From Bradyrhizobium sp. BTAi1 (lineage in GTDB: Bacteria; Pseudomonadota; Alphaproteobacteria; Rhizobiales; Xanthobacteraceae): a stretch of DNA of 64,000 nucleotides. The notes beneath the pieces were generated by a model. That model saw nothing but the letters and a program-made list of their open reading frames with translations. It was not told the origin of the DNA and ran no database searches. The stretch covers positions 3,987,501-4,051,500 of the forward strand of contig NC_009485.1 in the NCBI RefSeq assembly GCF_000015165.1, in the 5' to 3' direction. This document shows, piece by piece, positions 37,494 to 45,781 of the stretch. Positions within the stretch are counted from its first letter, which is position 1. Each line of letters opens with the position of its first letter. The position numbers and the translations under genes were made by a program.

Positions 37494-37588
37494 CATGATG
37501 CGTCTCCACGGAAACGCATCATGATCTAATATCTTCGTCTGAGCATGATCTTTCCGGAAAACCGGTTTCCACTGTTCCGGATCATGCT
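37494..37588 (+). repeat. Dispersed palindromic repeat, copy A
   Basis: Begins with CATGATGCGT (37494-37503) and its exact reverse complement (37514-37523). After a spacer, AACCGGTTTCCACTGTTCCG and GATCATGCT follow at the right end. Copy B (45195-45269) shares the same two-part organisation in the opposite orientation, apart from a different internal spacer. I recall similar sequences scattered in Bradyrhizobium intergenic regions. Confidence 0.8.
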
Positions 37589-37634
37589 CGAGTTCGCGAC
37601 GCGCGCTGTCGATCCTCCTGATCTCGCCGGCCCG

Positions 37635-38720
37635 TCAGGTCCCGGCATCGAACCGGTCGAGGAACTCGCGGACGGTGTGAACCGAGCCGGTGTCGGCCGG
37701 CGCGTAGCCGGGCAGGGCTGCGATCTCACGATGGAAATCGTCGCCCTTCATCACGTCGAGCACGCGCCGCATCGGATCGCTCTCCAGGAACGATTGATGG
37801 CAGGCGAAGAAGTAGTCCTCGGTGAGGATGCGGATGAAGTCGAGCCCGAACTGCCGCGCGGCAGCCTCGACGCCAAAGCTGACATCGGCCATGCCGCTCG
37901 CGACATAGGCGGCGACGGCCGCATGGGTGAACTCGATCTGCTGCGCGCCGTTGATCTGCTGTTCGTCCAGGCCATGCGCTGCGAGCAACTGATCGAACAG
38001 CAGGCGGGTGCCCGAGTCATGATCACGATTGACGAACCGCGCTTTGCCTTCGGCGAGATCGGCCAATGATCGGATGGACAGCGGATTGCCGCGTTTGACC
38101 ATCAATCCCATCTCGCGTGTCACGAAACTGATGACACAGTCCCGCTCGGGATCGAGCCAGTCTCGGCAGGCCTGAATGCTCTGTGCCCGGAGCTCGCCCC
38201 GTGGCAGGTGCAAACCCGAAAGATCGCAGGCGTCCTGCGCGAGCGAGGCCAGCGAATGTTGGCTGCTGACGTAGCGAAGGTCGATGCCGACACCCGGTGC
38301 GCGATCCAGCAACTCACGCAGCTTGGCCACGGCAAAGCCATGACTGGCGTGAACGCGGATCAGCGCCGGGTGTGGCTGAAGGAACGGTTTGATCTCGGTG
38401 ACGAGCTCCTGCGCGAGATTGTCGAGCTGAGGACCGAGCCGCGCATGCATGCGCTCGCCCGCCCACACCAGCTTGTCTCCGAATGCGGTCAGTCGCGATC
38501 CCTTGCCGCGCTGGGCTTCCACCAACGGCACGCCGAAAAATGCCGACCATTGCTCGATCAGATTCCAGACATGCCGATAGGAGAGCTGGGCATCGGTGGC
38601 TGCGCTCGTGATCTTGCCCGTCCGCCTGATCTCGCTGAGCACGCGGAGCATCACGACGATGCTGTGCGGGTCATCATCCTTGGAGAAGCGCCAGACAGGT
38701 TCGATCGCGATCCGCAACAT
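37635..38720 (-). CDS. ModE-type HTH regulator with periplasmic-binding-like sensor domain
   Basis: The 361-residue product has an N-terminal winged helix like that of ModE (about residues 15-90): IVVMLRVLSEIRRTGKITSA, then SYRHVWNLIEQWSAFFGVPL and GSRLTAFGDKLVW. In place of the two Mop/TOBE molybdate-binding domains of ModE, the remainder (about 120-350) is a substrate-binding-protein-like domain (GLMVKRGNPLSIRSL, DSGTRLLFDQLL, VAAYVASGMADVSFGVEAAA). Such fusions are known as a separate family, but their ligand is usually undefined. It is divergent from the first aldehyde dehydrogenase across a 111-base gap and adjacent to mosBA, so it probably controls this locus in response to an oxyanion or a metabolite. 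Confidence 0.85.
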   Translation of the reverse strand: MLRIAIEPVWRFSKDDDPHSIVVMLRVLSEIRRTGKITSAATDAQLSYRHVWNLIEQWSAFFGVPLVEAQRGKGSRLTAFGDKLVWAGERMHARLGPQLDNLAQELVTEIKPFLQPHPALIRVHASHGFAVAKLRELLDRAPGVGIDLRYVSSQHSLASLAQDACDLSGLHLPRGELRAQSIQACRDWLDPERDCVISFVTREMGLMVKRGNPLSIRSLADLAEGKARFVNRDHDSGTRLLFDQLLAAHGLDEQQINGAQQIEFTHAAVAAYVASGMADVSFGVEAAARQFGLDFIRILTEDYFFACHQSFLESDPMRRVLDVMKGDDFHREIAALPGYAPADTGSVHTVREFLDRFDAGT

Positions 38721-38764
38721 CAGGGCCTGCTCTTGAAGACGGCTTCATGTGATCGCCTGCAATA

Positions 38765-38810
38765 GGCAACCCATATCATATTTACGAACTCATATTTGCT
38801 CCTACGTTGG
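38765..38810. promoter_or_regulatory. AT-rich operator-like direct repeats
   Basis: In the divergent gap, CATATTTACGAACTCATATT contains a direct repeat: TCATATTTAC and TCATATTTGC, 14 bases apart. It lies between the regulator (start 38720) and the first aldehyde dehydrogenase (start 38832). It could be a binding site for the regulator or a -10 region for either gene. No Mo-box palindrome is present here. Confidence 0.4.
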
Positions 38811-38831
38811 CATACAACAAGCGGAGGAAAT

Positions 38832-40322
38832 ATGATGTCCATTGCATATGAGTACGAGCGCAGCTCCGCGCTATCGTCGGATCTGACGAAGCCGCTGCAA
38901 CTTCTGATCGGCGGACGGCACGTTCCGTCGGTCTCGGGGCGCACCTTCACGACGCTCAATCCCGCCACGGAGCAACCGCTCGCGACCATTGCCGAGGGCA
39001 ATGCCGAGGATGTCGATCTTGCCGTCGCAGCCGCGCGGCGTGCCTTCGAAGGTCCTTGGCGCACGATGCGTGCGGCCGAGCGCGGCGCGATCCTGCTCAA
39101 ATGGGCGCAGCTGGTGCGTGATCGGTCCGCTGAGATCGTCGAGCTGGAAAGCCTGGACGCCGGCAAGCCGGTGTCGGCGATCCTGCGCCAGGATCTTCCT
39201 GCGGCGATCGACACGCTGACCTACTACGCCGGCTGGGCCGACAAGATCAGCGGCGAGGTTGTCTCCACCCGCGACGATGCCCTGACCTATACGGTGCGCG
39301 AGCCGGTCGGCGTGGTCGCCGCGATCGTGCCCTGGAACTTTCCTTTGATGATCGGGATGTGGAAGCTTGCCCCGGCACTGGCCTGCGGTTGCACGGTGGT
39401 GATGAAACCGGCCGAGCTGACCTCGCTGTCCGCGCTGCGCATCGCTGAGCTGGCACTCGAAGCCGGTCTGCCACCGGGCGTTCTCAACATCGTGACCGGA
39501 CCCGGGCGCATCGTCGGCGAGGCGCTGGTCAACCATCCCGATGTCGACAAAGTGACGTTCACCGGCTCGCCCGGCGTTGGCCGCGGCATCATGAAGGCGG
39601 CCGCCGGCAACTTCAAACGGGTGTCGCTCGAGCTCGGCGGCAAGTCCGCCAACATCATCTTCGATGATGCGAATATCGAGGCGGCGGCCAAAGCTGCGGC
39701 CAGCGGCATCTTCTTCAACGCCGGGCAGGTTTGCTCCGCGGGCTCCCGCGTGCTGGTGCAGGAGCGCGCCTATGACGAGGTCGTCGAACGCCTGACCGCG
39801 CGGGCACGCGCGTTGCGGATCGGAGATCCGCTCGATCGCGCGACCTCGCTCGGTCCGGTGATCTCCGAGCGGCAGATGAAGACGATCCTCGACTATGTCG
39901 ACATCGGCCGACGCGAGGGCGCCACGCTCGTGACCGGGGGCGAGCGCGCCGCGGCGCGGGGCTATTTCATCAGCCCGGCGGTGTTTGCCGGCGTCACGCA
40001 TGAGATGCGGATCTCGCAGGAGGAGATCTTCGGTCCTGTGGTCAGCGTGATCAAGTTCAAGGACGAGGCCGATGCGCTGCGCATGGCGAACGGCACCGCC
40101 TACAGCTTGGCGGCCGGCGTCTGGAGCCGCGACCTGGGGCGCGTACAGCGCTTCGCCAAGCGGCTGCGCGCCGGCACGGTGTGGATCAACACCTATGGCT
40201 ACACCGACGTCCGGTTGCCCTGGGGCGGCGACCGCGACTCCGGTCTCGGCCGCGAGCACGGCACGGCGGCATTGGACAATTTCACCGAGCCGAAGGCGGT
40301 GTGGATGAACCTCGCAGTGTGA
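38832..40322 (+). CDS. Aldehyde dehydrogenase (first of two in the molybdenum locus)
   Basis: The 496-residue NAD(P)-dependent enzyme is predicted to oxidise an aldehyde to the acid. ATG at 38832 (or 38835) follows GGAGGA. Hallmarks are PWNFPLMIGMWKLAPALA, FTGSPGVGRGI (Rossmann cofactor loop), catalytic Glu in SLELGGKSANII, and catalytic Cys in FNAGQVCSAGSRVLV. The C-terminus matches the family. The substrate is unknown. It is divergent from the ModE-like regulator and convergent with mosA (85 bases between stops). Why an aldehyde dehydrogenase sits with molybdenum genes is not explained by the sequence. Confidence 0.93.
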   Translation: MMSIAYEYERSSALSSDLTKPLQLLIGGRHVPSVSGRTFTTLNPATEQPLATIAEGNAEDVDLAVAAARRAFEGPWRTMRAAERGAILLKWAQLVRDRSAEIVELESLDAGKPVSAILRQDLPAAIDTLTYYAGWADKISGEVVSTRDDALTYTVREPVGVVAAIVPWNFPLMIGMWKLAPALACGCTVVMKPAELTSLSALRIAELALEAGLPPGVLNIVTGPGRIVGEALVNHPDVDKVTFTGSPGVGRGIMKAAAGNFKRVSLELGGKSANIIFDDANIEAAAKAAASGIFFNAGQVCSAGSRVLVQERAYDEVVERLTARARALRIGDPLDRATSLGPVISERQMKTILDYVDIGRREGATLVTGGERAAARGYFISPAVFAGVTHEMRISQEEIFGPVVSVIKFKDEADALRMANGTAYSLAAGVWSRDLGRVQRFAKRLRAGTVWINTYGYTDVRLPWGGDRDSGLGREHGTAALDNFTEPKAVWMNLAV

Positions 40323-40406
40323 GGTTGCGAGATCCATCTGCGAGCAGGGCCGCGATGTCGCACTCGCGGCCCTGCAAGGGGCGTCGTTCAGTCGATCTTT
40401 GTCGTC

Positions 40407-41237
40407 TTAGTCCATTGCGCCCGTCGTGATGATCGAGCCGACGTGATGGCCGCGCAACGCTGCCGTGAGCCGTCCGGGAACCAATCCGTTGATGAGCTGG
40501 ATGCGCGTCAGGTGGCGGGCATTGGCCATCACCTCGACCAGCGTGCGGTCGAACGGCAGCGTGCCCTCCTGCTTGGCAAGCGCATCGAAGCTGGTGCGGT
40601 CCAGCAGTTTCGCCTGAGCTGCGTCCGGCCCCTTCGGGTCTGCGGTGTAGACGCCATCCACATCCTCGACGATGGTCAGGCCGGCAGCGCCGAGCGCGTC
40701 GGCGATCAGGAAGGCGCCGGTGTCGGCCCGATGCGGTGGGATGCGCGAGGTCGGGAATTCATGGTGGTGATAGGGCGGAAAGGCGCTGCCGACCACGGCG
40801 CGCGCGGCGGTGAGATGGATCGCGAGCTGGTTGGCGATGGTCGGATGTTCGATATAGGAGACACCTTCCGACGCCAGCAGCGCGGCCAGGATATGGCCGT
40901 TCTGGCCGGCTTCGCTGGCTGCCAGCGGCGCGAGCGAGCCGACCGGCAGGCCGAGATCGAGGCCGACGCCATACAGGTGGCGGGCGCGGATGCCGGCGCC
41001 GGTCAGGATCAGCAGGCGGTGCTCGGGCAGCAGCGTCTTGATCTCCTCAACCAGGGGCAGGATCGCCTCTGCGCCGCGGTCCATGATCGCGCGGCCGCCG
41101 ATCTTGATGACCTGCAGCCACGGCAGCAGCGCGATCGGGCGCTTGCCGGCCACGGGACGGGTGAGCTTGTTGTCGAGCAGTGTCTGGCGCGCGAGCGGCG
41201 AGGCGACGTGCTTGATGGTGTTGGCGGTCTCAGCCAT
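40407..41237 (-). CDS. mosA: Molybdenum storage protein subunit alpha
   Basis: With MosB it forms a hexamer that stores large numbers of Mo (or W) atoms as polyoxometalate clusters in an ATP-dependent way. The 276-residue product has the UMP-kinase-like amino-acid-kinase fold: [13 protein letters not shown] (44-56), [13 protein letters not shown], and the subunit hallmark [21 protein letters not shown] (154-174), whose His cluster corresponds to cluster-binding histidines of the Azotobacter protein as I recall it. Similarity to the remembered A. vinelandii sequence is high over the whole length. The start at 41237 gives exactly the family length. Second gene of mosB-mosA, 13 bases after the mosB stop. 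Confidence 0.93.
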
Positions 41238-41250
41238 GGATATGGGCCTC

Positions 41251-42063
41251 TCAGCTCGCAGTGATGATCGTGCCGACATGCTCGCCGGCGAGCGCGCGGG
41301 TCAGATTGCCGGGCACGAGGCCGTTGACGACCTGGACCTCGCGGACATGGCGTGAGGCTTCGAGCAGATCGAGCATCGGAAACTCCAGGATGGAGTCGGC
41401 GAGACCCTTGGCCTTCATCTCGGCGACCGAGATCTTCGGAATGAAGGTGGCGTTCTTCTCGGTCTTCGGATTGGCGGTATAGAGGCCGTTTTCGTCCTTC
41501 ACATAGATCATCGCCTTGCAGCCGAACTGCTCGGCGACCAGGAAGCAGCCGGCGTCGGTGCGGTAGGGCGGGATCACGCCGTCGGCGGCGGGGCGCATCC
41601 ACAGGCCGTAGGGTGGCATGCCGCTGAAGACGACGGCGTTCACTTCGGCAAGATACAGCGGCACGGCGGACAGGCCGGCGCCGTCGACCGCCGAGATGCC
41701 GTGCTTGGCGAGCAACTGTCCCAGCATCGCCGCGTTCTGATCGGCGACCGAGGCGCCGAGCTGCGACAGCACGCCGGCGGGCAGGTTGAGGCCGGCGGCG
41801 ATCGAATAGAGGTGGCGAGCGCGCGTCCCGGCGCCGGTCCCGATCAGCATCTTGTGCGCCTTGCGGGCGGCTACGATCTCCTCAACCAGCGGATAGACGG
41901 CGGCGCGCCCGCGGTCGATCATGCTCTGGCCGCCGATCTTGATCACATTGGCGTCAGGAAGGATGCGGAAATCAATTGCCGTCTCCGCCGCCGCGATCAA
42001 TTGGGCGTCGGTCAGCGAGCGCTGCATCAGCAGCGTCTCGAGCTCGGCCGTCGTGCTTGCCAT
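41251..42063 (-). CDS. mosB: Molybdenum storage protein subunit beta
   Basis: Partner of MosA. The 270-residue product starts [20 protein letters not shown], close to the remembered A. vinelandii MosB start, and has the same length. Kinase-fold motifs are [13 protein letters not shown] (40-52) and [15 protein letters not shown]. The subunit-specific [20 protein letters not shown] and CEQFGC-like segment ([20 protein letters not shown]) follow, and it ends [10 protein letters not shown]. The ATG at 42063 is preceded by AAGGGATC. A palindrome resembling a Mo-box lies 257 bases upstream. MosC, an ABC-ATPase-like assembly partner in Azotobacter, is not in this window. Confidence 0.93.
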
Positions 42064-42435
42064 CGAACAGGATCCCTTATGCTTGTCGACATCCGTCAGC
42101 GCGCCGGCATGCCACCGCCGCCGCCCGTTGTGGGCTCCTGAACGTTTCCTGGAGGGGAGGGCCGGGAGCTCAAGCCCCGGCCTCGATCGCGTGCTGTCCA
42201 TGGACGACGCGATCCTTTGTGGCGTCGGCCGCTCGCTTGGCTGCCAACACGCGGCGAAAATGATCGCTCCGGTTCCGGACGTCAACCGCGATCAGAGCAA
42301 TTCTTTTGATGTTTCAATGAGCTATATCGTTATTGATACAGCTTTGGTGGGTCCCGAAGCCGCCCCCATCGCGGCTGCTCGAATATTGAGCAGGTCGTGA
42401 ACGGCGCGTGCGAGCGCCCTCGCGTCGGTGCCAAG
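42064..42435. other. Gap between mosB and the DUF2478 gene
   Basis: About 370 bases with no credible gene. It must carry the mosB-mosA promoter, and it contains the Mo-box-like palindrome at 42320-42343 and an AT-rich patch (42290-42345). Confidence 0.55.
42320..42343. promoter_or_regulatory. Mo-box-like palindrome before mosB
   Basis: AGCTATATC, 6 bases, then GATACAGCT. The half-sites match at 8 of 9 positions as inverted repeats, with the same 6-base spacer as ModE boxes. The outer CG of the consensus is replaced by AG. It lies 257-280 bases before the mosB start. Confidence 0.5.
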
Positions 42436-42999
42436 CTATTTCAGCATCTCGCAGATCGTTGGGCGGACATCATCGAACCCTGGGTAACGCCGCGACACGG
42501 TTTGCCACCAAGCATTCAACGCACGATGCGTGCAGGGCAGTCGCACACTCATGCCGTGCGCGAACCGGATCCATTCCACAAATCGGAAGCTTGGGACCGC
42601 GATCACGACAGGGATATCTGATGCCAGTGCCTGCTCGATCAGGAAGGTGAGGCCTTTGCCTTCGCTTTCCTGACGGCCGAAGCGGTTGATGATGAGAAGA
42701 TCGGCGCCGTCGCTGAGGGCGTTCGCGACCTCGGCACCAGCCTGCAGCAGCTGGCCGACATCGAGCCGGCGGCCGCTCGCATGATGTCCAAGTTGCAGCA
42801 GCAGGGGACGCTCGACACCGTTGTGCACCAGCATCGCTGCGATGCCGTCAGCGTCGACGGCGTGTCGGACCTGTTGGATCAGGCCGACGGCGCGAACGCC
42901 GCGGGCCTGCAGGCTCTGCGCGAAATTGCGCAGCACAGTGTCAGGGTCGTCGCCGCGGTCATAGACCACGGCAGCGAGATCGCATTCGGCATCGAACAT
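42436..42999 (-). CDS. DUF2478 family protein
   Basis: The 187-residue product begins MFDAECDLAAVVYDRGDDPD and continues with VLRNFAQSLQARGVRAVGLIQ, DLLIINRFGRQESEGKGL and PVVIAVP, the DUF2478 pattern as I know it. These proteins resemble P-loop NTPases of the nucleoside-triphosphatase type, though I see no classical Walker A here. The family is often encoded next to molybdate transport or molybdenum storage genes. Its precise role is not established. It starts 66 bases after the stop of the second aldehyde dehydrogenase on the same strand, so they are probably cotranscribed. Confidence 0.82.
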   Translation of the reverse strand: MFDAECDLAAVVYDRGDDPDTVLRNFAQSLQARGVRAVGLIQQVRHAVDADGIAAMLVHNGVERPLLLQLGHHASGRRLDVGQLLQAGAEVANALSDGADLLIINRFGRQESEGKGLTFLIEQALASDIPVVIAVPSFRFVEWIRFAHGMSVRLPCTHRALNAWWQTVSRRYPGFDDVRPTICEMLK

Positions 43000-43065
43000 T
43001 GCGCGCTCCGAATGGCAATGGAGATCGACGAGGCCGCGGCTGTTGTCCCGCGGCCTCGCGGTGGC

Positions 43066-44478
43066 TCAGGCGGCGACGCCGGGTCCGTTGATGATCTGCA
43101 GCTGGGTGAATTCGGCGAGGCCTTCCTCGGCGAATTCGGTGCCGATGCCGGATTGCTTGGCGCCGCCGAACGGGATGTGCGGCGCCATGTCGAGATGCTT
43201 GTTGATCCATACCGTGCCGGCCTCGATCCGCGTGGCGATCTCGTGGGCGCGTTTCGGATCTGACGACCACACCGAGGCGCCGAGCCCGTAGCTGGAAGCA
43301 TTGGCGCGGCGGATCACGTCGTCGGAATCGGAGTATTTGATCACGGGCAGCACCGGTCCGAACTGCTCCTCGTCGACCAGCTTGGAGCCTTCCGCGATGT
43401 CGCGCACGATGGTCGGCGCGATGAAATAGCCGGGGCGGTCCATCGCCGCGCCGCCGGCGATCACCTTGCCGTTCTTGTGCGCGTCGTCGAGAAACGCCTT
43501 CACCTTCTCGTACTGCATCTTGTTCTGCAGCGGTCCGAGCTTGGTGCCCTGCTTGGAGCCGTCATCGACGACCGTGCTCTTGGCGATCGCGACCAGCTCG
43601 TCGCAAATCTCGTCATAGACGCTTTCATGGACATAGAGCCGCTTGATCGCGAGGCACACCTGGCCTGAGTTCTGGAAGGCGCCGTCGAAGATGCCGGGCG
43701 CGACCGTCTTCGGATCGACGTCGTCGAGCACGATGCCGGCGTCGTTGCCGCCCAGCTCGAGCGTGATGCGCTTCAAGGTCTGGGCGGCGCTCGCCATCAC
43801 CTTCTGGCCGGTGGCGGTCGAGCCCGTGAACGAGATCTTTCGGATGTCCGGATGCTTCGTCATGGGATCGCCGAGATCGTTGGCGTCAGCGATCACGTTG
43901 AGCACGCCGGCGGGGAGCACATCCTTGACCAGCTCGGCGAAGCGCAGCGTCGATAGCGGCGTCGTCGGCGCCGGCTTGACCACCAGCGTGTTGCCGGCGA
44001 GCAGGGCAGGTGGCAGCTTGAAGCCGAGGATCAGCAGCGGGAAGTTCCAGGGGATGATGGCGCCGACCACGCCCAGGGGGCGCCGATAGGCTTCGACCTG
44101 CCGGTCGCCCGAACGCTCCAGCACCCGCATCGGCAGATCCAGTGACGCCAGATAGCGGAAGAAGCCGGCCATGCCGAGCACCTCGCCGGTGGCGTCGGCG
44201 AGCGGCTTGCCTTGTTCGCTGGTCAAGATCCGGGCGAGGTCGTTGGCATGGGCCTCGATGATGTCCGCCATCTTGCCGATCAGGCGGCGGCGTTCCGTGA
44301 TCGGGGTGGCGGCCCAGGCCGGAAAGGCGGCCTTGGCGGCGGCCACCGCCGCGTCGAGCTGGTCCTTGGATGCTCGCGGACAATCGGTCAGCACCTCCTC
44401 GGTCGCGGGATTGATGACCGGCATGGTCGTCTCGCCCGGCACCAACGCCCCGCCGATCAGAAGATGATAGTCACTCAT
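43066..44478 (-). CDS. Aldehyde dehydrogenase (second in the molybdenum locus)
   Basis: The 470-residue product is closest in character to succinate-semialdehyde-type dehydrogenases: PWNFPLLILGFKLPPALLAG, FTGSTATGQKVMASAA, catalytic Glu in TLELGGNDAGIVLD and catalytic Cys in FQNSGQVCLAIKRLYV. The C-terminal PFGGAKQSGIGTEFAEEGL is standard. Substrate not predictable. Its ATG at 44478 is preceded, at 44516-44539, by a near-perfect Mo-box, so it should respond to a ModE-type regulator and is first of an operon with the DUF2478 gene. It is only a distant relative of the first aldehyde dehydrogenase, not a recent duplicate. Confidence 0.93.
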   Translation of the reverse strand: MSDYHLLIGGALVPGETTMPVINPATEEVLTDCPRASKDQLDAAVAAAKAAFPAWAATPITERRRLIGKMADIIEAHANDLARILTSEQGKPLADATGEVLGMAGFFRYLASLDLPMRVLERSGDRQVEAYRRPLGVVGAIIPWNFPLLILGFKLPPALLAGNTLVVKPAPTTPLSTLRFAELVKDVLPAGVLNVIADANDLGDPMTKHPDIRKISFTGSTATGQKVMASAAQTLKRITLELGGNDAGIVLDDVDPKTVAPGIFDGAFQNSGQVCLAIKRLYVHESVYDEICDELVAIAKSTVVDDGSKQGTKLGPLQNKMQYEKVKAFLDDAHKNGKVIAGGAAMDRPGYFIAPTIVRDIAEGSKLVDEEQFGPVLPVIKYSDSDDVIRRANASSYGLGASVWSSDPKRAHEIATRIEAGTVWINKHLDMAPHIPFGGAKQSGIGTEFAEEGLAEFTQLQIINGPGVAA

Positions 44479-44515
44479 GGCATGCCTCTCCCTGCAATAT
44501 GTGACGCTTCGGTCA

Positions 44516-44539
44516 CGTTATATACAAAGCTATATCACG
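44516..44539. promoter_or_regulatory. Mo-box (ModE-type operator)
   Basis: CGTTATATA (44516-44524), a 6-base spacer CAAAGC, then TATATCACG (44531-44539). The halves are inverted repeats at 8 of 9 positions and match the known ModE operator CGTTATATA-N6-TATATAACG closely. It begins 38 bases before the second aldehyde dehydrogenase start and probably overlaps its promoter. Confidence 0.8.
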
Positions 44540-44598
44540 CAAAATACAGCAGCGCCATCGTTAGATGGCCGTGGGGCAGGTAGACGCTGCTCCGTTTT

Positions 44599-44622
44599 CG
44601 ATATATTCATGCGGGAATAACG
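44599..44622. promoter_or_regulatory. Weak Mo-box-like site
   Basis: CGATAT (44599-44604) and ATAACG (44617-44622) are separated by 12 bases, the spacing of the core hexamers in a Mo-box; one position of the outer core differs and the inner halves do not match. It lies 23-46 bases before the small gene that starts at 44645. Confidence 0.35.
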
Positions 44623-44644
44623 GTGAATTGAAGCGGAGCGCGTG

Positions 44645-45025
44645 ATGCAATTGCGGGCGAAGGCGCTGACCTGTTGCGAGGTGGTGGATGACGGCGAGAC
44701 GATCTCGCTCGGCTTCGAGGACGCCGCAGGTCAGCCGATCGCGCTCAGCCTCTCGGTCAGCCAGGCCGGTGCGCTGATCATGACCCTGCCGGGCCTTCTC
44801 GAAATGGCACTGCGCGCGCGCTATGGCGATCAGGCGCTGCGCTATGCCTATCCGCTGGCATCCTGGACCATCGAGCAATCCACCGACGCCGCCCAGCGCA
44901 TCATGACGCTCGCCACCGCCGACGGCTTCAGCGTCCGCTTCGCGATCCCGACGGCCGAGCAGAACGTGCTCGGCGAGGCGCTGCTGGCGCAGTACCCGAC
45001 GCTCATGGCTGTCCGGCCCAATTGA
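44645..45025 (+). CDS. Small unknown protein at the edge of the molybdenum locus
   Basis: The 126-residue product (ATG at 44645; a GTG one codon earlier also fits) is soluble, with mixed alpha/beta character: CEVVDDGETISLGFEDAAGQ, LSVSQAGALIMTLPGLLEMA and TADGFSVRFAIPTAEQNVLG. I do not recognise a family. It is divergent from the second aldehyde dehydrogenase, with a good and a weak Mo-box between them, so it may belong to the same regulon. Codon use resembles the neighbours. Its downstream gap carries repeat copy B. Confidence 0.7.
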   Translation: MQLRAKALTCCEVVDDGETISLGFEDAAGQPIALSLSVSQAGALIMTLPGLLEMALRARYGDQALRYAYPLASWTIEQSTDAAQRIMTLATADGFSVRFAIPTAEQNVLGEALLAQYPTLMAVRPN

Positions 45026-45358
45026 AGCGGTCGGGCGACCGGGTGTGGTTTGGGCCGCAGGGCCGACGGCCTGAGCTTGTCAGTATTATGATCTTGACCA
45101 GCACCCGCCGGCCCGCGGCGATGTGCTCACGGCGGCTGCGGCACGGTGCCGCGCTCTGGGAGCGCGGGGGTGGATGACCACCCTCGTCCTCCACAGCATG
45201 ATCCGGAAAAGTGGAAACCGGTCGTCCGACAGGATCATGATGCGTTTCCGTGGAAGCGCATCATGATCTGGACTTGAACCGCTTGCGGCCTCCGCGATAC
45301 CACAACATCGTATGTTATTTGCCGCCCGGGATAGGGCTTTTCGAAGTTGGACTCGTGA
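45026..45358. other. Intergenic region with repeat copy B
   Basis: About 330 bases before the globin gene. Apart from the repeat copy (45195-45269) I see no gene. The short stretch 45290-45355 should hold the globin promoter. Confidence 0.5.
45195..45269 (-). repeat. Dispersed palindromic repeat, copy B
   Basis: AGCATGATCCGGAAAAGTGG at the left is followed by AACCGGT, then the hairpin CATGATGCGTTTCC with GGAAGCGCATCATG (14-bp stem, one mismatch). Read in reverse it has the order and sequence of copy A (37494-37588), except that copy A has about 25 more bases in the middle. The copies are inverted relative to each other. Confidence 0.8.
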
Positions 45359-45781
45359 ATGTTGACCGCCGAGGAGATTGCCTGCGTCAGGTCGTCGTTC
45401 GACATGGTGTTTGCCAATGCCACGGACATGACCACGACATTCTATCAGCGGCTTTTCGAACTGGCGCCGGAATGCCGCTCGATGTTTCCCGACAACATGG
45501 ATGTGCTGAAGCGGGACTTCATCGCTACGCTGGCGGTGCTCGTCGGCAGCCTCGATCGGATGACCGGTTTGCTGTCGAGCACCGACATCCTCGGCCGCAA
45601 CCATGCGCGCTACGGTGTCAGGCCTGAGCATTATCCGCTGGTCGGCGAGGCCCTGCTGTGGAGCCTCGCCAAGGGTCTCGGACCGCAATGGACGGCGGAA
45701 GTGGAGCAGGCCTGGCGCAAGGTCTACGAGATCATCTCCCAGCGTATGATCGCGATTTCAGCCGGCCCTCGTCTGCCTTGA
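45359..45781 (+). CDS. Single-domain globin
   Basis: The 140-residue product has the globin pattern MLTAEEIACVRSSFDMVFAN at the start, TFYQRLFELAPECRSMFPDN (helices B-C, with Phe and Pro of the CD region), and RNHARYGVRPEHYPLVGEALLWSLAKGLG containing the proximal His. It resembles single-domain myoglobin/flavohaemoglobin-type globins; there is no reductase domain. It may bind oxygen or nitric oxide. It lies outside repeat copy B, alone, convergent with ppx. No linked denitrification or regulator gene is visible. Confidence 0.85.
   Translation: MLTAEEIACVRSSFDMVFANATDMTTTFYQRLFELAPECRSMFPDNMDVLKRDFIATLAVLVGSLDRMTGLLSSTDILGRNHARYGVRPEHYPLVGEALLWSLAKGLGPQWTAEVEQAWRKVYEIISQRMIAISAGPRLP

Follow-up and report, generated by a model that had tools for sequence, protein, structure and literature searches.

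Why should the genes of a molybdenum (Mo) storage protein lie among aldehyde dehydrogenase (ALDH) genes and Mo-boxes, the candidate sites of the regulator ModE? The question is raised by an 8-kb locus of Bradyrhizobium sp. BTAi1, contained in the stretch of DNA analysed here (the window: 64,000 nt, positions 3,987,501-4,051,500 of a contig of 8,264,687 bases, in a genome of 8,493,513 bases on 2 contigs). The locus holds mosA and mosB, which encode the subunits of the Mo storage protein (MoSto), two ALDH genes, a DUF2478 gene, a regulator gene and a small orphan gene. The answer proposed here, with a probability of about 0.58, is a ModE-controlled Mo-sparing regulon that would swap molybdoenzymes for Mo-free NAD dehydrogenases and is linked to the Mo store. 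It is built on the identities of the genes, the boxes and their conserved positions, the linkage of the genes and their co-occurrence among relatives.

Mo-boxes between aldh2 and the small gene

The Mo-box was searched for as CGTTATAT-N8-ATATAACG, with the reversed pattern as control. At up to 3 mismatches the window contains 2 sites, against 0 in 100 shuffles, and both lie between aldh2 and the divergently oriented small gene. An earlier note on this DNA had reported a near-perfect Mo-box, and this site is real: it has 1 mismatch (44516-44539) and is one of only two sites at up to 1 mismatch in 8.5 Mb, the other being at 4,351,168. The shuffles and the genome-wide scan rule out chance as its origin. 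At up to 3 mismatches the genome has 6 sites and the reversed control has 4, and a weak site by itself therefore carries little information. Two further boxes had been missed, a second one at 44599-44622 and a variant at 42320-42343. With a symmetrised matrix built from 68 sites at other loci, the three rank first to third in the window (30.5, 21.4 and 14.5, respectively). The features of the locus are as follows.

37635-38720, minus strand: regulator of the periplasmic binding protein (PBP) type, with a ModE/LysR-like helix-turn-helix (HTH) and a PBP_like domain (Pfam PF12727, E 5e-60; PF00126), divergent from ALDH1
38835-40322, plus strand: aldehyde dehydrogenase ALDH1 (PF00171, E 6e-184); closest NCBIfam models StyD and BADH, both below cut-off
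40407-41237, minus strand: mosA, MoSto alpha subunit (2ogx_A, E 1.6e-142), with the HHH stretch in the alignment
41251-42063, minus strand: mosB, MoSto beta subunit (2ogx_B, E 4.4e-150)
42320-42343, no strand: palindrome resembling a variant Mo-box, AGCTATAT-N8-ATACAGCT, 256 bp upstream of the mosB start codon; third-best matrix score in the window
42436-42999, minus strand: DUF2478 protein (PF10649, E 2e-41), with a predicted THEP1-like nucleoside triphosphatase fold
43066-44478, minus strand: aldehyde dehydrogenase ALDH2 (PF00171, E 4e-159)
44516-44539, no strand: Mo-box 1, 1 mismatch, 37 bp upstream of the ALDH2 start codon
44599-44622, no strand: Mo-box 2, with 3 mismatches and a matrix score of 21.4, 22 bp upstream of the start codon of the small gene
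44645-45025, plus strand: small orphan gene encoding 126 aa, without a match in Pfam or NCBIfam; alternative start one codon earlier

Gene and domain searches thus bear out the earlier inventory, in which mosB-mosA, DUF2478, two ALDHs, a small gene and a Mo-box share one locus. Along the plus strand, the order is PBP-type regulator (-), ALDH1 (+), mosA (-), mosB (-), DUF2478 (-), ALDH2 (-) and small gene (+). There are two divergent promoter regions, the gap between the PBP regulator and ALDH1 (114 bp) and that between ALDH2 and the small gene, and mosB has an upstream gap of its own of 372 bp. Because DUF2478 follows aldh2 at a distance of only 66 bp in the window, it may share the aldh2 promoter.

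Some further elements were observed in passing. The second near-perfect box of the genome (4351168-4351191; loci L001 and L117), which was also the only site retrieved by a stricter pattern, precedes an unannotated short open reading frame and a gene weakly matching CxxCxxCC. A single-domain globin gene (45359-45781) lies just downstream of the small gene; the maps of L119 and L168 show no globin gene in the small-ppx interval. The 8-kb locus is bracketed by short hairpin-like repeats (37512-37570 and 45213-45268), of which the rest of the window contains no further copy at up to 2 mismatches; one weak copy was found in L168 and none in L118, L119 or L120.

Genes that carry the boxes in relatives

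Boxes were then counted in loci picked for mosAB or for the small gene, with genes called by a codon-usage caller; only the scans of this genome and of six relatives were genome-wide. For the pooled counts, 120 bp upstream of each gene were searched, each distinct upstream region entered once, a minimum of 100 bp upstream was required, and mosA and mosB were pooled. A box with up to 2 mismatches precedes aldh2 in 33/33 regions, and in 32 of them it ends 37-41 bp short of the ATG. The small gene has such a box in 43/49 regions (47/49 at up to 3 mismatches), ending about 20-24 bp before the ATG in most, and the position of Mo-box 2 is the same in most relatives. By comparison, only 4 of 1829 other genes are preceded by a box at up to 2 mismatches, a count that includes the boxed DUF2478 gene of L026; for the DUF2478 class itself the count is 0/33. 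In 40 further small-gene loci (21 from genomes with mosB and 19 from genomes lacking it), a box with up to 3 mismatches precedes the small gene in every case; aldh2 is adjacent in 24 of these loci (18/21 and 6/19, respectively), all of which have a second box in front of aldh2. The genome-wide scan of six relatives, which is independent of locus selection, gave 30 boxes at up to 2 mismatches versus 3 for the reversed control, and all boxes of G162 (2) and G084 (1) are at small or aldh2 promoters. Taken together, shuffles, reversed control and pooled upstream counts show that Mo-boxes at the target promoters exceed chance. The conserved Mo-box unit of Bradyrhizobium is small, two boxes and, in the opposite direction, aldh2 followed by DUF2478.

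The position of the boxes bears on the sign of the control. Mo-loaded ModE might instead activate at high Mo, or exert mixed control, inducing the genes of Mo enzymes along with aldh2, DUF2478 and small, in which case the ALDHs would clear aldehydes arising from molybdoenzymes or Mo stress. Some ModE-type regulators can activate, as at mop of R. capsulatus, and a variant box 256 bp upstream of mosB is compatible with an activator site. Against this, the boxes end close to the ATG, some 20-24 bp from it in most small genes and 37-41 bp at aldh2, which is a repressor-like position, and activation is regarded as quite unlikely.

Boxes also precede other ALDH genes. These include a GATase-ALDH3 pair (L156), an ALDH3 gene alone (L283) and, in many loci, 498-aa ALDHs whose boxes mostly have 3 mismatches (1-2 in L268, L273 and L295) at a constant distance of about 40 bp before the gene. 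In L274 there are boxes at a 513-aa ALDH, named by eye (as were lactonase-like and fixABCX genes of relatives), and at an ExaC-like ALDH divergent from small, where the box is perfect. This breadth weighs on another explanation, in which DUF2478 and the small protein are accessory factors of MoSto or of the Mo cofactor, regulated by Mo supply, while the adjacent ALDHs serve another purpose. It draws on the three Mo contexts in which DUF2478 occurs in this genome, on divergent DUF2478-small pairs with no intervening ALDH (L266-L270 and L272), and on L026, where small, a 1-mismatch box and DUF2478 lie close to mosBA and to a pair of transporter genes. Since no gene is boxed as strictly as aldh2, and boxes occur at several further ALDH genes, this explanation is considered unlikely, and the conserved ALDH gene set beside MoSto is probably under Mo control, as the Mo-sparing regulon would have it.

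DUF2478 and the small protein

The DUF2478 match of the window is secure (141 bits against a Pfam gathering score of 22.3). Its structure model (pLDDT, the predicted confidence score, 84) retrieved 2i3b (E 4e-6) and 1ye8 (E 2e-5) in Foldseek, and the predicted fold resembles THEP1 nucleoside triphosphatases (1ye8, 2i3b) with TM scores of 0.55-0.65; it differs from them in lacking the Walker A motif, and identity is 13-16%. The genome has 3 copies of the family, one beside MoSto, one in the modABC locus with ModE-like and YqeB-like genes, and a third that adjoins TOBE (Mop-like) and QRPTase genes 35 kb from nifD.

The small gene has matches in 72 of the 195 Bradyrhizobium genomes compared; the structure prediction of its product is unusable (pLDDT 57). 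Within 6 kb of 63 distinct small genes there is an ALDH in 50, a ModE-like gene in 45 (a class that may include PBP regulators) and DUF2478 in 35. Across the order, 7/297 genomes have this protein family, 4 of them belonging to other taxonomic families. In one of these four (G304), a metal-free NAD-formate dehydrogenase gene lies directly before small, with ModE, DUF2478 and boxes nearby; in another (G448), an ALDH gene and small are separated by a 3-mismatch box, and a ModE-like gene is adjacent. The 13 kb around small in G358 contain no formate dehydrogenase, ALDH, ModE-like or DUF2478 gene and no box.

The storage pair and its association with the boxed genes

The top structural matches of MosA and MosB are the alpha and beta subunits of Azotobacter MoSto (2ogx_A and 2ogx_B), and UMP kinases appear only from E 5e-6 upward. 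A kinase identity is ruled out, as these matches trail the storage subunits (about 1e-142 and 1e-150) by far. Checked against structure-verified storage proteins, and with kinases excluded as the best homologues, the pair named in the earlier note is, by its sequence, true MoSto. It shares with A. vinelandii MosA/MosB (PDB 2ogx) both subunits, the gene pair and the alpha HHH stretch, and differs in its neighbours, in a possible variant box and in having no tie to nifD in Bradyrhizobium. MosB precedes mosA on the same strand, with 13 bp between them in the window, and this order recurs in 80/80 loci, the best 80 of the 194 stretches that encode MosA relatives (78-91% identity in these 80). MoSto genes also occur in Nitrobacter and Nitrotoga records.

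Two side observations concern the spread of the pair. A mosA relative with 78% identity lies on a contig labelled as a Chloroflexota metagenome-assembled genome (MAG; L065), by mis-binning or transfer. In L109-L113, from five Bradyrhizobium genomes (G094, G117, G043, G187 and G124), there is a second, divergent MoSto-like pair, 53-57% identical to mosB and without the alpha HHH stretch, which in the maps of L109 and L112, read by eye, follows modABC-like genes and a WD40-type gene.

Among the 195 genomes, canonical mosB is present in 39 (86-100% identity), at least one DUF2478 gene in 119 and nifD above the cut-off in 127. The mosAB spans compared extended in most cases from 5 kb upstream to 15 kb downstream, and less far at contig ends. 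They contain aldh2 (at least 70% identity) in 16/39 mosB genomes, the window's included; it lies 7-15 kb downstream of mosAB in 14 of the 16, and directly upstream of mosBA only here and in STM 3809. One MAG locus (L023) reads aldh2 (cut by the contig end), DUF2478, ModA, mosB, mosA, modA and a modB-like gene. Thus, of the conserved neighbourhood that had been suggested, relatives share the grouping of MoSto with aldh2, DUF2478 and small, whereas the exact order is local. The small gene accompanies mosB in 34/39 genomes versus 38/156 of those lacking mosB (odds ratio 21), and small with a nearby DUF2478 in at least 28/39 versus at least 13/156, both counts drawing on 56 of the 72 small-gene genomes. 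On a tree of one gene, ppk, for 78 of the 195 genomes (those with even-numbered handles in the match list, together with G161, G167, G179 and G065; weak small matches in G138, G144 and G154 coded as absent, nifD of G176 as present), the associations of mosB with small and with small/DUF2478 were reached in 0/2000 simulations in either direction.

The same counts address the role best known for MoSto. In PMC6448029, it is described as a Mo buffer of Azotobacter, and the A. vinelandii protein donates Mo for the iron-molybdenum cofactor (FeMo-co) of nitrogenase in vitro; the present genome has nifD, and MoSto might merely buffer Mo for nitrogenase in a diazotrophic symbiont, with incidental neighbours. 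Nevertheless, mosB and nifD are not associated (28/39 versus 99/156, p=0.35), also on the ppk tree (phi 0.16, reached in 23% and 14% of simulations; P 0.23 and 0.14), 11 of the 39 mosB genomes have no nifD above the cut-off, one of which (G176) has a partial nifD, and the Nitrobacter and Nitrotoga records count against this explanation too. A nitrogenase-only role is not supported by the counts and simulations and is very unlikely here; the earlier suggestion of a different or additional role fares well.

The regulator

The regulator at 37635-38720 had been called ModE-type. This is correct for its ModE/LysR-like HTH, and goes too far for the protein as a whole, which scores 44.6 bits against a cut-off of 98.5 for the ModE model TIGR00637, carries a PBP_like domain and has no box at its own promoter. 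The pair it forms with ALDH1 also occurs in genomes lacking mosB, e.g. L155 and L168. HTH-only ModE-like proteins are encoded elsewhere in the genome, with scores of 92 bits for the one at 1.72 Mb and 61 bits for the one at 2.15 Mb, and are candidates for the protein that would bind the boxes. The gene at 1717828 (L174) adjoins short-chain-dehydrogenase-like and old-yellow-enzyme-like genes, as in L091 (both read by eye). The genome's modABC genes are at 2.15 Mb; as stated earlier, the window has none, since tblastn with the genome's own ModABC found only a general ABC protein in it (33.6-34.7 kb) and no match to ModA or ModB.

The closest precedent is the control of anfA by ModE, MopA and MopB in R. 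capsulatus, described in PMC7294313, according to which ModE represses Mo-free nitrogenase in many diazotrophs when Mo is present. Both systems have Mo-box-type sites at genes of Mo-independent enzymes, and ModE-like genes lie near many of the loci compared here; the two differ in that the putative Bradyrhizobium targets, inferred from sites, are ALDHs, DUF2478 and an orphan gene.

A proposed molybdenum-sparing switch

The proposed scheme would transfer ModE repression of Mo-free nitrogenase, by analogy, to aldehyde oxidation. With ample molybdate, Mo-loaded ModE would occupy both boxes of the small-aldh2 intergenic region and silence the two operons. A drop in Mo would release ModE from the DNA, and NAD-type ALDHs would be made (aldh2 here, additional ALDHs in relatives). 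Presumably Mo-free, as is typical of their family, these enzymes could stand in for molybdoenzymes, for example of the xanthine-oxidase family; Ald_Xan_dh_C matches number 15 in the genome, of which 12 are strong. DUF2478 and the small protein would be produced alongside and may assist in transferring or freeing Mo, with MoSto as one possible source. In P. putida KT2440, according to PMC7545826, disrupted molybdate uptake largely halts furfural oxidation. This Mo-dependent aldehyde oxidation, and reportedly that by E. coli PaoABC, are the same chemistry carried out by molybdoenzymes; the systems differ in that the box-preceded enzymes here belong to the Mo-free ALDH family. Among the best matches of literature searches on MoSto, DUF2478 and ModE (a term that also hits 'mode'), no link between Mo-box and ALDH was found.

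A broader version is possible, though held tentatively and doubted somewhat more than it is believed: in Bradyrhizobium and some other members of the order, a general Mo-sparing response in which ModE derepresses several Mo-free ALDHs and, in some families, a metal-free formate dehydrogenase to replace molybdoenzymes, while DUF2478 and the 126-aa orphan, as two new Mo-handling proteins, mobilise the Mo of MoSto.

Several observations weigh against the Mo-sparing regulon, which is itself predicted from sites, linkage and co-occurrence. As to the regulator, the best ModE model match in the genome (92 bits) stays below the curated cut-off of 98.5. As to the sites, a sigma-70 scan of 42040-44660 gave no promoter match, so that the repressor position rests on the closeness of the boxes to the ATG; G162 and G084 have one reversed-control match each; and boxes also precede non-ALDH genes, e.g. 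in L292. Neither ALDH1 (0/15, the window's included) nor the PBP-regulator genes (0/15) are preceded by a box. No ALDH lies within 6 kb of small in 13 of the 63 loci. In G343, another of the four genomes from other families, a metal-free NAD-formate dehydrogenase gene is two genes away from small, in a locus without a box at up to 3 mismatches, and the formate dehydrogenase genes of G304 and G343 have no box directly upstream.

The storage genes themselves add to these points. No standard Mo-box precedes mosA or mosB (0/213 pooled upstream regions), which places the store mostly outside the regulon. The 'storage regulon' of the earlier note must therefore be given up, and membership of the storage genes in the standard Mo-box set is rejected, bar the variant palindrome before mosB. 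This palindrome is common to three photosynthetic relatives (this strain, STM 3809 and G179), among which it is better kept than its flanks; 8 of 124 mosB upstream regions, among them duplicates from one strain, score above 8 on the matrix. It is the aldehyde side that makes up the conserved Mo-box set, with MoSto as its companion.

The linkage is also incomplete. Small is lacking in 5/39 mosB genomes, and the small-DUF2478 unit is present in at least 13 genomes lacking mosB. G179 keeps mosBA and small, the latter without a box at up to 3 mismatches, and lacks the PBP regulator, ALDH1, aldh2 and most of DUF2478. In G146, which has no mosB match, ALDH1 is joined straight to small in the same place between terC and ppx, and the window stretch of about 40,323-44,594 (mosA, mosB, DUF2478, aldh2 and Box 1) is missing. 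G084, likewise without mosB, groups small with genes for an HTH-only ModE, the PBP regulator and ALDH1. Judged by these arrangements, the window is a compact, lineage-specific version of a wider conserved gene set.

Implications for Bradyrhizobium

MoSto, presented in a 2019 paper (PMC6448029) as having no known homologues, is contrary to that statement widespread, and in Bradyrhizobium it is not tied to nitrogenase. A switch between a metal enzyme and a metal-free substitute is known for nitrogenase, and the genomes point to the same for aldehyde oxidation. The genus is important for the nitrogen supply of legumes, and Mo is often limiting in soil. Finally, DUF2478 and an unnamed protein family gain a first testable role in the handling of Mo.

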